NCBI RefSeq assembly: GCF_001592755.1
Contig: NZ_LUKF01000019.1
Coordinates: 1-64,000, forward strand
From: Bdellovibrio bacteriovorus
GTDB taxonomy: Bacteria; Bdellovibrionota; Bdellovibrionia; Bdellovibrionales; Bdellovibrionaceae
DNA: 64,000 bases
Direction of reading: 5' to 3'
A program made the translations under genes and the position numbers. The notes under the pieces were generated by a model that saw only the letters and a list, made by a program, of their open reading frames with translations, was not told the DNA's origin and ran no database searches. Of this stretch, positions 36,168-39,693 are shown in pieces. Position 1 is the first letter of the stretch. The number at the start of each line of letters is the position of its first letter.

Positions 36168-37238
36168 ATGAGTACAGCGAAGTACTTGGTTCTCTTAGTA
36201 GCGACACTGATGTTGGCAACGGCTTGCGAGCAACAGGTCGAAGATGATGGCTCGAGCGAAAACGATCAGGCCACAAACCCCACACGCTTTCTTTATATTG
36301 CTAGCGGAAGTTGTTATGCCGGGGGGCCTACTCCGACCTCCCCTTCGCGCACGATCTCGCGTGTGAATCTAGCAACCGGAAATATCCATGACATCATCGT
36401 TGATTACAATGCGGCTTCTCCGGGTGATGCGCCCATCACCGTTATCAATCACGATGACAACACCGTTCTTTCTTTGGTCGAGAACACCAGCGGGCGTCGC
36501 GTGGATCGAGTCACTAAGTCTTCCAACGGAAATCAATATCAGACATATTTTACGAACTCGACGGCACTGAACGCGGTGATGCGAAGCATGAGTGTAGCTT
36601 CAGACGGCGCTTTATTAATTAGTAAATCCAGTGCCATTGAAAAGTTCGCAGCAAAAAGTCGCGTGGGCACTGCGGCCTATGTCAACGCTCCGGGCGGCGC
36701 TTGTGCGACAACGACAACGTTAATTTCAAGTCTTACGGTGACACCTACTTACGGGCACATCCTTTACACACATGCAGCGGCGGCTCCTAACAACAAGCTG
36801 AATGCGATAAAAGGAACAGGTTATGTTTCCGCTGCCGACTGTTTAGCAAGCACGTCCATCACTCCGACAACAGCTTTACCGACAGCCATGGTTTACATTC
36901 CTTCGTCAAATGATGTTTTGATCGCAACGGGAGGCACGACGGCGGCTTCGAATATGATAATTTCCTATCCCATCACCGAAACCGCTTCGACCGTCACGAT
37001 TGGATCGCCGACTGTCGCCTACATCAACACCAGCGTGATTTATGGCCCTTCCGCGATGACCTATGACGCTGAAACGGGTTTTGTCTATGTTGCGAATGGA
37101 TCCACATCTTTAGCGAACGTGATTGAAAAATTCACTTATGATTCAACGACGAAGACTTTGACTCGCGTTGGGACCGTGCCCTTCACTGGAACAAGTCTGC
37201 AAACAAATTGTATAAGTTCGATGTTTGTGGGGAATTAA
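36168..37238 (+). CDS. Lipoprotein, beta-propeller-like (356 aa)
   Basis: Signal peptide with lipobox LATAC (Cys20). The mature chain has repeated strand-rich units with the feel of a beta-propeller (FLYIASGSCYAGG, ISRVNLATGNIHDI, MVYIPSSNDVLIATGG, MTYDAETGFVYVANGS), as in PQQ/YVTN or lactonase-like families, although no diagnostic motif is seen. Seven or so blades would fit the length. AAAGGAGACGAC precedes the ATG. Function unknown. A shared terminator lies between it and the protease gene. Confidence 0.75.
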   Translation: MSTAKYLVLLVATLMLATACEQQVEDDGSSENDQATNPTRFLYIASGSCYAGGPTPTSPSRTISRVNLATGNIHDIIVDYNAASPGDAPITVINHDDNTVLSLVENTSGRRVDRVTKSSNGNQYQTYFTNSTALNAVMRSMSVASDGALLISKSSAIEKFAAKSRVGTAAYVNAPGGACATTTTLISSLTVTPTYGHILYTHAAAAPNNKLNAIKGTGYVSAADCLASTSITPTTALPTAMVYIPSSNDVLIATGGTTAASNMIISYPITETASTVTIGSPTVAYINTSVIYGPSAMTYDAETGFVYVANGSTSLANVIEKFTYDSTTKTLTRVGTVPFTGTSLQTNCISSMFVGN

Positions 37239-37266
37239 AAAAGGCACCGGAAGGTGCCTTTTCTTT
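37239..37266. terminator. Bidirectional intrinsic terminator
   Basis: AAGGCACC / GGTGCCTT with a GGAA loop, flanked by A-rich and T-rich sequence on both sides, between the convergent lipoprotein and protease genes. Confidence 0.9.
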
Positions 37267-38969
37267 TAGTAGCTTCCGGTGAAATTAATGCTCCATTGAG
37301 TGAGCGTTCCCGAGTTGCCCGATTTCGCATCGACGACTTTCAGAGTCCAAGCTCCTTGAGTCGTTTCTTGATAGAAGGCGTTGGTCAGGAAAGTTTGTCC
37401 GGTATAATTAGCAAGACCTGTTAAAGAGTTTCGTGCATTGACGATGATACTTTTCTTTCCTGACGGCGAAATTAACTCAAGCGCCAGTTCAGAAATATTC
37501 GCGTGAGTGACCCACACCCGGATTTGCACCGATTCAATTTTAATATTCGGAGTGTTCACGATGATCACACTAGAGCCACCGGCCGCAGCATTGTCCGGGA
37601 TACCTACAGAAATTCCACCTGAAGTATCTGACCAATTTGTTTCCGTAAAAGCACCAAAAGGAGAAGTATAGTTTCGCGCTAAACTTACGGCCGCGTCTAC
37701 GTCGACTTTTCCAAACCCGTACCAGTTATGAAACTTAAATCCGGCCCCATTCTGAATCCAAGGCTGCTCCCAGGCATAACCTGCTGGCGTCGTATCCATA
37801 GGGTGAGGCACCGTTCCCGTTGTCACATAATTTACTGGGACGGCTGTTTTGGCGAGAATGTATTTCACGTCTCTCCAAGTCAGATTGGGATTGGCTTCTA
37901 AGATCAGTGCAATGGCACCCGTAAGAACCGGAGTCGCCGCCGAAGTTCCGTTAAACGTGACGGAATAGCTGCACGCTGAGTTGCCGTTGGCTCCTTTTTC
38001 AAAGGCCACGTCACTAGTAACATTCGAAGCAGAAAATCCTTTGCTACATCCCATACGATCTGTTGTCACCATGGCTGGAGAATCATCACCGAACTCTCCA
38101 CCAAACGAAGACACCCAAATGTTAGAGCCCGGCGAAGAATAGCTTGCTGCATATCCTTCCGCATTCAAAGCGCCCGCTAAAAGTGTATAAGGAGTGCTAT
38201 TATCAGAATCAAAGTTCGCATTTCCAACGCAATACTCGGTGCTAGAGCCACGGCATTTCACAAAAAAATCGTTCCCGGCCGCTTTGACAATTAAGGAGCC
38301 TTTTCCCGAGCGACCATTGATCGCTTTTGATTTTAACTGCGCCTGAAAATTAGATGAAACAGTCGACAAATTATTTTGCGAAGAACCCCAACTCATATTG
38401 AAAAGGTCAAAGTTTCCCTCGGCCTGACTGACTAATATCGCGTCAGAATATCCTGCCGCTTCAGAAAGAAAATTCGCTGAAGCAATCCCCGCCCCGAAAG
38501 CGACACCCTTAGTGCCCACACCATTGGAGGCAACAGCCGCAATCAAACCAGAAACAGCCGTACCATGGTTATCGTTAGCAACTTTCGGTGCAGCAGCACT
38601 CGCTGTCCAAGGTGATGCCAAAGTATAATCTTTAGAAACGCCGTAAAGAAAATTCTTCTTTAGATCTTCGTGAGTGTCTTCAACACCATCGTCAGAAACT
38701 AAAATTGAAAGACCTTTTCCAGAGTATCCGCTCGACCAAGTCTGCAGAAGATTTAAATCGTTTCCGACTTCACCCGCAGTCGTCGAAAAAACTTTCTGAG
38801 CGGTATTATTGATATGCCAAGCCAGTTCTAATAATGGATCGGCACCGGTTTTATCCGGCTCAACAGCAGTGAAAGTACTTTCCGCACAATTCGTAAAGAA
38901 CAGCCCCGTGAGACAGCTCACCGCTAAAACAGAAACTAAAATGCGGAAGCGAGGACTAATTCTTTTCAT
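37266..38969 (-). CDS. Subtilisin/kexin-like protease with P-domain, lipoprotein
   Basis: 567 residues, S8 serine protease. Lipobox ends at Cys28 (LFFTNC), so it is anchored in an envelope membrane. Catalytic triad: Asp93 (SDDGVEDTHEDL, the kexin-type DDG), His135 (NHGTAV) and Ser343 (NGTSAATP); oxyanion Asn233 (AAGND). A C-terminal P-domain (about 455-567) occurs in proprotein convertases. No propeptide of its own is seen: only about 50 residues separate the lipobox from the catalytic core. The upstream gene encodes a propeptide-like protein and overlaps it by 14 bases. Predicted role is degrading or processing envelope or prey proteins. Confidence 0.9.
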   Translation of the reverse strand: MKRISPRFRILVSVLAVSCLTGLFFTNCAESTFTAVEPDKTGADPLLELAWHINNTAQKVFSTTAGEVGNDLNLLQTWSSGYSGKGLSILVSDDGVEDTHEDLKKNFLYGVSKDYTLASPWTASAAAPKVANDNHGTAVSGLIAAVASNGVGTKGVAFGAGIASANFLSEAAGYSDAILVSQAEGNFDLFNMSWGSSQNNLSTVSSNFQAQLKSKAINGRSGKGSLIVKAAGNDFFVKCRGSSTEYCVGNANFDSDNSTPYTLLAGALNAEGYAASYSSPGSNIWVSSFGGEFGDDSPAMVTTDRMGCSKGFSASNVTSDVAFEKGANGNSACSYSVTFNGTSAATPVLTGAIALILEANPNLTWRDVKYILAKTAVPVNYVTTGTVPHPMDTTPAGYAWEQPWIQNGAGFKFHNWYGFGKVDVDAAVSLARNYTSPFGAFTETNWSDTSGGISVGIPDNAAAGGSSVIIVNTPNIKIESVQIRVWVTHANISELALELISPSGKKSIIVNARNSLTGLANYTGQTFLTNAFYQETTQGAWTLKVVDAKSGNSGTLTQWSINFTGSY

Positions 38970-39693
38970 AAGTTCTACTTAAAATTTCCATTTCTGAAGA
39001 TTCTAAAGAGGGATCATTTTTTAAAATATCTTGGACGACTTTTAAGTCAAAAGGCTCTTGAGGAGACGTCACGTAATAAGTACGAATATCCGGAAACGAA
39101 TTTAAAACTTTCAGTCCCAAGTTTTGCGTAAGAACCTGTGGCGAAACTCCTTCTTTAAGGACCACCGAAAAAGTTCCCGTGACGACACCCGCAATTCCCA
39201 ATCGAGCATCATAAACCACGATCGGCTGAGACGCGGAAAAAGCACTCGGATCCGCCGCTTCCTCTTTAACTAAATAAAAACCCGTCATTTCGCCGACAAC
39301 GACTGCGGAAGGTGGTCCCGCATTTTTAGGGACGGCTCTTACGCCATTCCAGATTTTCCAATCACTATCAGCAAAAAGCGGCGATTCGGAAAACTCTGCA
39401 TTTTGTGTATTCAGCTTAATAGAATCCCGCTCTGACTTGGGTAAGCGACGAGATCGCGGCACCATCTGCGCTGGTTCTTGATTGGAAGCAATTTCAGTGG
39501 TTTGAGTTTTTTCAGAAGACTCTACTGCCACGGTGGCAGTGGAGGTGGACTCATGGTCCTTTGCAGATGATAAAGTGGTAGAAGCTTCGGTGTTTGCAGT
39601 TATTACTGACGAAGAAGCCCCTTTATTCCAAAAATAAAGAGCCGCTCCCCCTAATACGATCAAGAAAATGACTATGGATAACCGACGTGCCAT
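38956..39693 (-). CDS. Membrane-anchored subtilase propeptide-like protein
   Basis: 245 residues: a transmembrane anchor (about 5-22), a Ser/Thr-rich linker, and a C-terminal segment (about 168-241) that looks like the inhibitory propeptide of large subtilases: a strand TGTFSVVLKEGVSPQVLTQ, LGLKVLNSFPDIRTYYVTSPQEPFDLKVVQDILKNDPSLESSEMEI. In those enzymes the propeptide ends with helix-turn and (D/E)xxVESxE, which matches this end. The gene overlaps the protease gene by 14 bases. It may act as a folding chaperone and inhibitor supplied in trans. This is inference from pattern and context. Confidence 0.6.
   Translation of the reverse strand: MARRLSIVIFLIVLGGAALYFWNKGASSSVITANTEASTTLSSAKDHESTSTATVAVESSEKTQTTEIASNQEPAQMVPRSRRLPKSERDSIKLNTQNAEFSESPLFADSDWKIWNGVRAVPKNAGPPSAVVVGEMTGFYLVKEEAADPSAFSASQPIVVYDARLGIAGVVTGTFSVVLKEGVSPQVLTQNLGLKVLNSFPDIRTYYVTSPQEPFDLKVVQDILKNDPSLESSEMEILSRTYEKN

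Follow-up and report, generated by a model that had tools for sequence, protein, structure and literature searches.

A propeptide-deficient, kexin-like lipoprotein protease of Bdellovibrio bacteriovorus and its probable ORF2-like chaperone are encoded by overlapping genes

Analysis of a 64,000-nucleotide stretch of Bdellovibrio bacteriovorus DNA (here called the window) showed a kexin-like protease gene that overlaps the gene for a separate propeptide-like partner, and this pair very probably represents a folding unit made up of two genes, like ASP/ORF2 (Table 1). This reading is built on the gene structure, the protein families, the lack of a cis propeptide, the ORF2/propeptide fold of the partner, the near-obligate adjacency of the two genes, and the fixed length of the partner's tail. 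The upstream gene would supply a propeptide domain in the periplasm, held at the inner membrane by its N-terminal anchor and a flexible linker, and the downstream, overlapping gene a kexin-like lipoprotein protease without a propeptide. The protease entering the periplasm would fold on the tethered domain, and the 10-residue tail of the partner, judging from ORF2, would occupy the active-site cleft and inhibit the protease. Dissociation or cleavage of the chaperone would then yield the active protease, probably as the lipoprotein moves from the inner membrane to the outer membrane or to the outside. The roles that we infer for the partner are therefore chaperoning, inhibition, membrane placement, and (timed) release of the protease.

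Table 1. Positions of the partner and protease genes, their parts, and the adjoining hairpin in the window
Feature	Position	Strand	Basis or remark
Hairpin with T-run, likely terminator common to the protease gene and the convergent plus-strand gene	37239..37262	.	AAAAGGCACCGGAAGGTGCCTTTT
Protease: kexin/ASP-like S8 + P-domain lipoprotein, 567 aa	37266..38969	-	PF00082, PF01483, 3hjr, fold
Protease P domain, residues 478-563	37281..37538	-	Pfam
Protease catalytic domain, residues 43-433; D93, H135, N233, S343	37671..38843	-	Fold alignment
Predicted lipoprotein signal, protease residues 1-28 (FFTNC, Cys28)	38886..38969	-	Conservation
Overlap of partner stop and protease start, 14 bases	38956..38969	-	ORF calls
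Partner: ORF2-like external-chaperone gene, 245 aa, predicted signal anchor	38956..39693	-	ORF, PF18492, dN/dS
Ten-residue partner tail from conserved E236 (EILSRTYEKN)	38959..38988	-	Length exactly 10 in 80/84
Propeptide-like chaperone domain, partner residues 95-239	38977..39411	-	pLDDT 81-97
Low-complexity Ser/Thr-rich linker, partner residues 23-94	39412..39627	-	pLDDT mostly <65 to residue 90
Predicted N-terminal membrane anchor, partner residues 2-22	39628..39690	-	AlphaFold helix 2-22

A preliminary description of this DNA had reported two genes overlapping by 14 bases, and both ORFs were recovered at the positions in Table 1. They are separate ORFs, the first with its own stop codon, so that the protease is not in the same chain as the propeptide-like domain. 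The overlap is 14 bases long in most Bdellovibrio relatives as well, and the partner gene gave a dN of 0.22 and a dS of 1.5 when compared with that of one relative (locus L056). The hairpin, with its T-runs, lies between two convergent genes and is likely a bidirectional terminator; the plus-strand gene (36168-37238) encodes a 356-aa lipoprotein-like product without a Pfam match. A promoter scan found sites no more commonly than in shuffled sequences.

The protease matched Peptidase_S8 (PF00082, residues 84 to 420, E 8.5e-38) and P_proprotein (PF01483, residues 478 to 563, E 2.6e-20), and its P domain is the only one in its genome. The catalytic triad was assigned by the subtilase pattern, and all 23 proteases compared carry D93, H135, N233, and S343. 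The nearest solved relative by sequence is ASP of Aeromonas sobria (3hjr, E 3.6e-75; 3wqb, E 8.9e-75), with furin (5e-39) and kexin (3e-29) well behind. The AlphaFold model (mean pLDDT of 76 and pTM of 0.80, with residues 24 to 71 and 291 to 338 poorly modeled) matched the fold of furin with a Z of 44 and that of ASP with a Z of 40 over 493 residues. At the N terminus, a hydrophobic segment is followed by Cys28, which is invariant in the 23 proteases. The window protease's own box, FTNC, has Asn where most lipoboxes carry Gly, Ala, or Ser; more distant relatives show canonical lipoboxes (LSSC, LTAC, and LSGC) at the same place, and nearly all of the proteases have one. The earlier designation of the protease as a lipoprotein thus holds as a sequence prediction; the lipobox calls, like the anchor calls below, are pattern readings and not SignalP results.

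There is no room in this protein for a propeptide. The sequence alignment with ASP, itself propeptide deficient, begins at protease residue 40. In the AlphaFold model, residue 43 aligns with furin residue 111, the start of the mature domain, and also lies where mature Tk-subtilisin begins (80-81); residue 46 aligns with subtilisin residue 1, and residues 45 to 47 align with residues 80 to 82 of Tk-subtilisin. This leaves only ∼15 residues between Cys28 and the start of the mature fold, which means that a cis propeptide of 60 to 80 residues cannot fit. In addition, a search with the partner profile found no match inside the protease ORFs. The preliminary description had the protease lacking a propeptide, and this was borne out by the position of the mature fold; a propeptide within the protease itself, which would speak against a separate partner, was looked for by both sequence and fold alignment and is absent. 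Seven other subtilases of the same genome (L165, L166, L167, L169, L170, L175, and L176) have ∼100 to 250 residues ahead of the S8 domain, and these segments appear propeptide-like in our own reading of the sequences, made without a Pfam scan. Two further subtilases were observed. One, of 1,034 aa (L185, contig C2, 109-6410), has no obvious cis propeptide and is preceded by a 1,066-aa ORF with a 4-base overlap, possibly a second trans-acting arrangement. The other, of 459 aa (L184, contig C3, 2234-3613), has a membrane anchor at its N terminus and neither an evident propeptide nor a partner-like neighbor.

The partner matched the Pfam family PF18492 (ORF_2_N) with an E of 3.2e-6 and 27.8 bits, just under the cutoff of 29.2. 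The same family matched 26 of the 29 orthologues in the family alignment (best, 6e-11), two also being touched by the fervidolysin prodomain, and a copy above the cutoff was found in 19 of 60 relative genomes. In a Foldseek search with the partner model, the top match was 3wqb_B, the ORF2 chain of the ASP complex (E 5e-3, probability 1.00). Near the top were also a convertase prodomain (9fid), propeptides of Tk-subtilisin, and the PAM protease chain 8c4x_B, along with unrelated ferredoxin-like folds. When compared by VIA, the partner aligned with all 99 of 99 residues of 3wqb_B over model residues 102 to 245 (Z 8.1, rmsd 3.2) and with the propeptides of PC1/3, subtilisin, and PCSK9 at Z values of 6 to 8. 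A Z of 8.1 alone could reflect a common arrangement, since it is at the edge of what such arrangements give, though the coverage is complete. When PDB sequences were searched with a profile of the partner alignment, ORF2 was not among the hits, and the link between the two stands on Pfam and fold. Full coverage, first rank, the Pfam match, and the adjoining ASP-like gene together make homology of the partner to ORF2 secure. The propeptide-like segment with which the partner was said to end is therefore a propeptide fold in the model, and the proposal of a separately encoded, propeptide-like foldase or inhibitor for a P-domain protease gains strong support from the homology to ASP/ORF2. A match of the partner to PF21827 ("New_glue") was rejected; it spans the anchor and the Ser/Thr linker, which are of low complexity.

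The predicted anchor of the partner is hydrophobic, has no AxA motif or lipobox, and is conserved in Bdellovibrionota relatives, whose partners have a basic start and 15 to 20 hydrophobic residues, mostly with no signal-peptidase or lipoprotein motif. The membrane anchoring claimed earlier is thus retained as a prediction. Several partners (L123, L136, L150, L158, and L160), from metagenome-assembled genomes (MAGs) labeled Anaeromyxobacter, Gallionellaceae, and Gammaproteobacteria, have AxA-type signal ends instead. One tentative possibility is that, in Bdellovibrionota, the inner membrane retains the anchored chaperone while its lipoprotein client is destined for the outer membrane, so that activation is coupled to transfer of the client or to cutting of the linker. 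If true, this would amount to a spatial switch, absent from the secreted ASP/ORF2 pair, and its timing could follow the predation cycle.

A partner that appears to remain anchored in the membrane might also be a standing inhibitor only, shielding the producer's envelope in an immunity-like manner while the protease folds unaided. Propeptide-type folds such as POIA1 do exist as pure inhibitors, and 1v5i_B is among the VIA matches. However, maturation of ASP requires ORF2 (PMC5638518), and the window protease is without the cis propeptide that the other subtilases of its genome mostly carry, which makes an inhibitor without a folding role unlikely.

The C-terminal tail of the partner, counted from the conserved Glu to the C terminus, is exactly 10 residues long in 80 of 84 partners whereas the total length varies with an SD of 29; such a fixed length is as expected if the partner ends in the active site. 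It also bears on the idea that the partner serves as an adaptor for targeting or secretion which brings the protease to a membrane site and whose propeptide-like fold is an evolutionary relic. The conserved anchor and the long linker would suit an adaptor, but a relic would not keep its tail length fixed and the protease carries a lipoprotein signal of its own, so that we regard this idea as very improbable.

Some trends were apparent in the tails. First, the partner ends in Lys or Arg in 61% of protease-first pairs, compared to a background of 10%, and Pro or Ala often precedes this residue, as in the Gln-Pro-Lys of ORF2. Second, partners in the group with the 14-base overlap end in Asn, Phe, Tyr, or Lys, and 23 of 24 (96%) have Lys in the penultimate position. 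VKN or IKN tails are kept where the overlap is only 0 to 4 bases (L079, L083, L097, and L098), which means that shared reading frames do not explain the tail Lys. Where the last residue is Asn, Phe, or Tyr and not Lys as in ORF2, seating in S1 may differ. Third, the residue after the catalytic Asp in the window group is Asp94, which we take to be equivalent to the furin S2 residue Asp154, and a Lys or Arg occupies P2 of the tail in 26 of the 31 pairs that have Asp94 compared to 3 of the 46 that lack it. W194 and D94 were the top columns when the tail was compared with S1/S2 positions for co-variation; they are suggestive, but the comparison is confounded by phylogeny and includes only four independent pairs. 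With so few changes, co-variation cannot be distinguished from shared descent, and that of the tail Lys with Asp94 is therefore treated as a lead: on binding, the Lys of the tail may sit in S2, or the tail may be cut after it. ASP itself favors Lys at P1 as well as at P2 (PMC5638518).

The pairing recurs in other genomes. All 29 loci fetched by the partner have an S8 + P-domain protease directly downstream, mostly with the 14-base overlap. Another 80 loci were fetched independently with the protease alignment as the query (the named relatives are Bdellovibrio and Bdellovibrionaceae), and an adjoining partner-like ORF was found in 69; nine of the 11 loci without a partner are ORFs cut by the end of the contig or of the fetched stretch. 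After removal of duplicates, there were 88 distinct pairs, always adjacent, with the partner first in 55 and the protease first in 33, and none of the 88 was a fusion. The gene order requires six changes on the protease tree, at least four of which are forced by well-supported branches, and adjacency was kept throughout. Such recurrence is not due to chance, and the idea that the two are chance operon neighbors without interaction, for which the only argument is how common overlapping genes are in general, can be dismissed given adjacency in this many pairs, in two orders and several lineages. Across the phylum, 26 of 192 genomes have a partner that Pfam recognizes, among them 14 of the 16 from the genus of the window, and a single-protein search found the partner in 23 of 23 same-genus relatives. 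A weak partner-like match in genome G057 (E 0.009, L084) has five internal stops and no adjoining protease and was set aside as chance. In some relatives (L065, L082, and L081), the lipobox and the S8 domain are separated by ∼100 additional residues, and some proteases exceed 1,000 aa; the separate partner is kept. A MAG labeled Anaeromyxobacter has three protease-chaperone pairs (L123, L135, and L158), each chaperone adjoining its own protease.

Relatives not known as predators also carry the pair, which means that it is not a predator-specific invention. The earlier suggestion of a design for a predator is therefore not upheld. The principle of an external propeptide chaperone is already known from ASP/ORF2; what is new is the arrangement, seen across predatory bacteria and other lineages. 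Because the pair is present in all of the same-genus relatives and in several other lineages, is never fused, and has switched order several times, it provides a natural comparison set. This set could address why the propeptide stays separate and by what means a protease of this type is restrained and later set free. The window protease is a conserved, furin-like enzyme within its genus.

Among known systems, the lipase-specific foldase Lif is an inner-membrane-anchored steric chaperone whose gene lies beside that of its secreted enzyme; the window pair has an unrelated fold and client. The partner shares its fold with the cis propeptides of subtilisins, furin, kexin, and PC1/3 (VIA Z of 6 to 8 with 1scj, 1spb, and 9fid). 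Unlike these, it is encoded by a separate gene, and release by autoprocessing of a single chain is therefore not available to it. The window protease is an S8 protease of the same genus as Bd2269 and other secreted predation subtilases, which act in prey exit (PMC12546842), but it alone in its genome has a P domain, whereas most other subtilases of that genome appear to have a cis propeptide. A 2008 survey listed an S8 + P-domain protein of B. bacteriovorus, NP_967370.1 (PMC2605481). In the literature searched, including that survey, we found no mention of a partner of this subtilase and no paper naming PF18492 or kexin-like proteases of Bdellovibrio.

The closest system is ASP/ORF2, operons of which are found in Aeromonas and four further genera, as a survey is quoted in PMC5638518. 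ORF2 inhibits ASP with an IC50 of 84 nM, and its C terminus binds at the catalytic site of ASP (PMC5638518; 3wqb). Both systems combine a propeptide-deficient S8 + P-domain protease with an adjoining, separate chaperone gene of the same Pfam family and fold, and in both the partner ends in a short tail, that of ORF2 being seen at the active site in 3wqb. The window pair differs in several respects. The chaperone gene lies upstream with a 14-base overlap, whereas it lies downstream in Aeromonas, an order shared by the 33 protease-first pairs. The window partner appears to keep its predicted membrane anchor and a long linker, the window protease is a predicted lipoprotein, and the tail ends in EKN, with Lys penultimate, compared to QPK, with Lys last, in ORF2. 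As for the extra occluding region of ASP, in which Arg566 contacts ORF2, the alignment with the window protease stops at ASP residue 558, and the protease ends 15 residues later.
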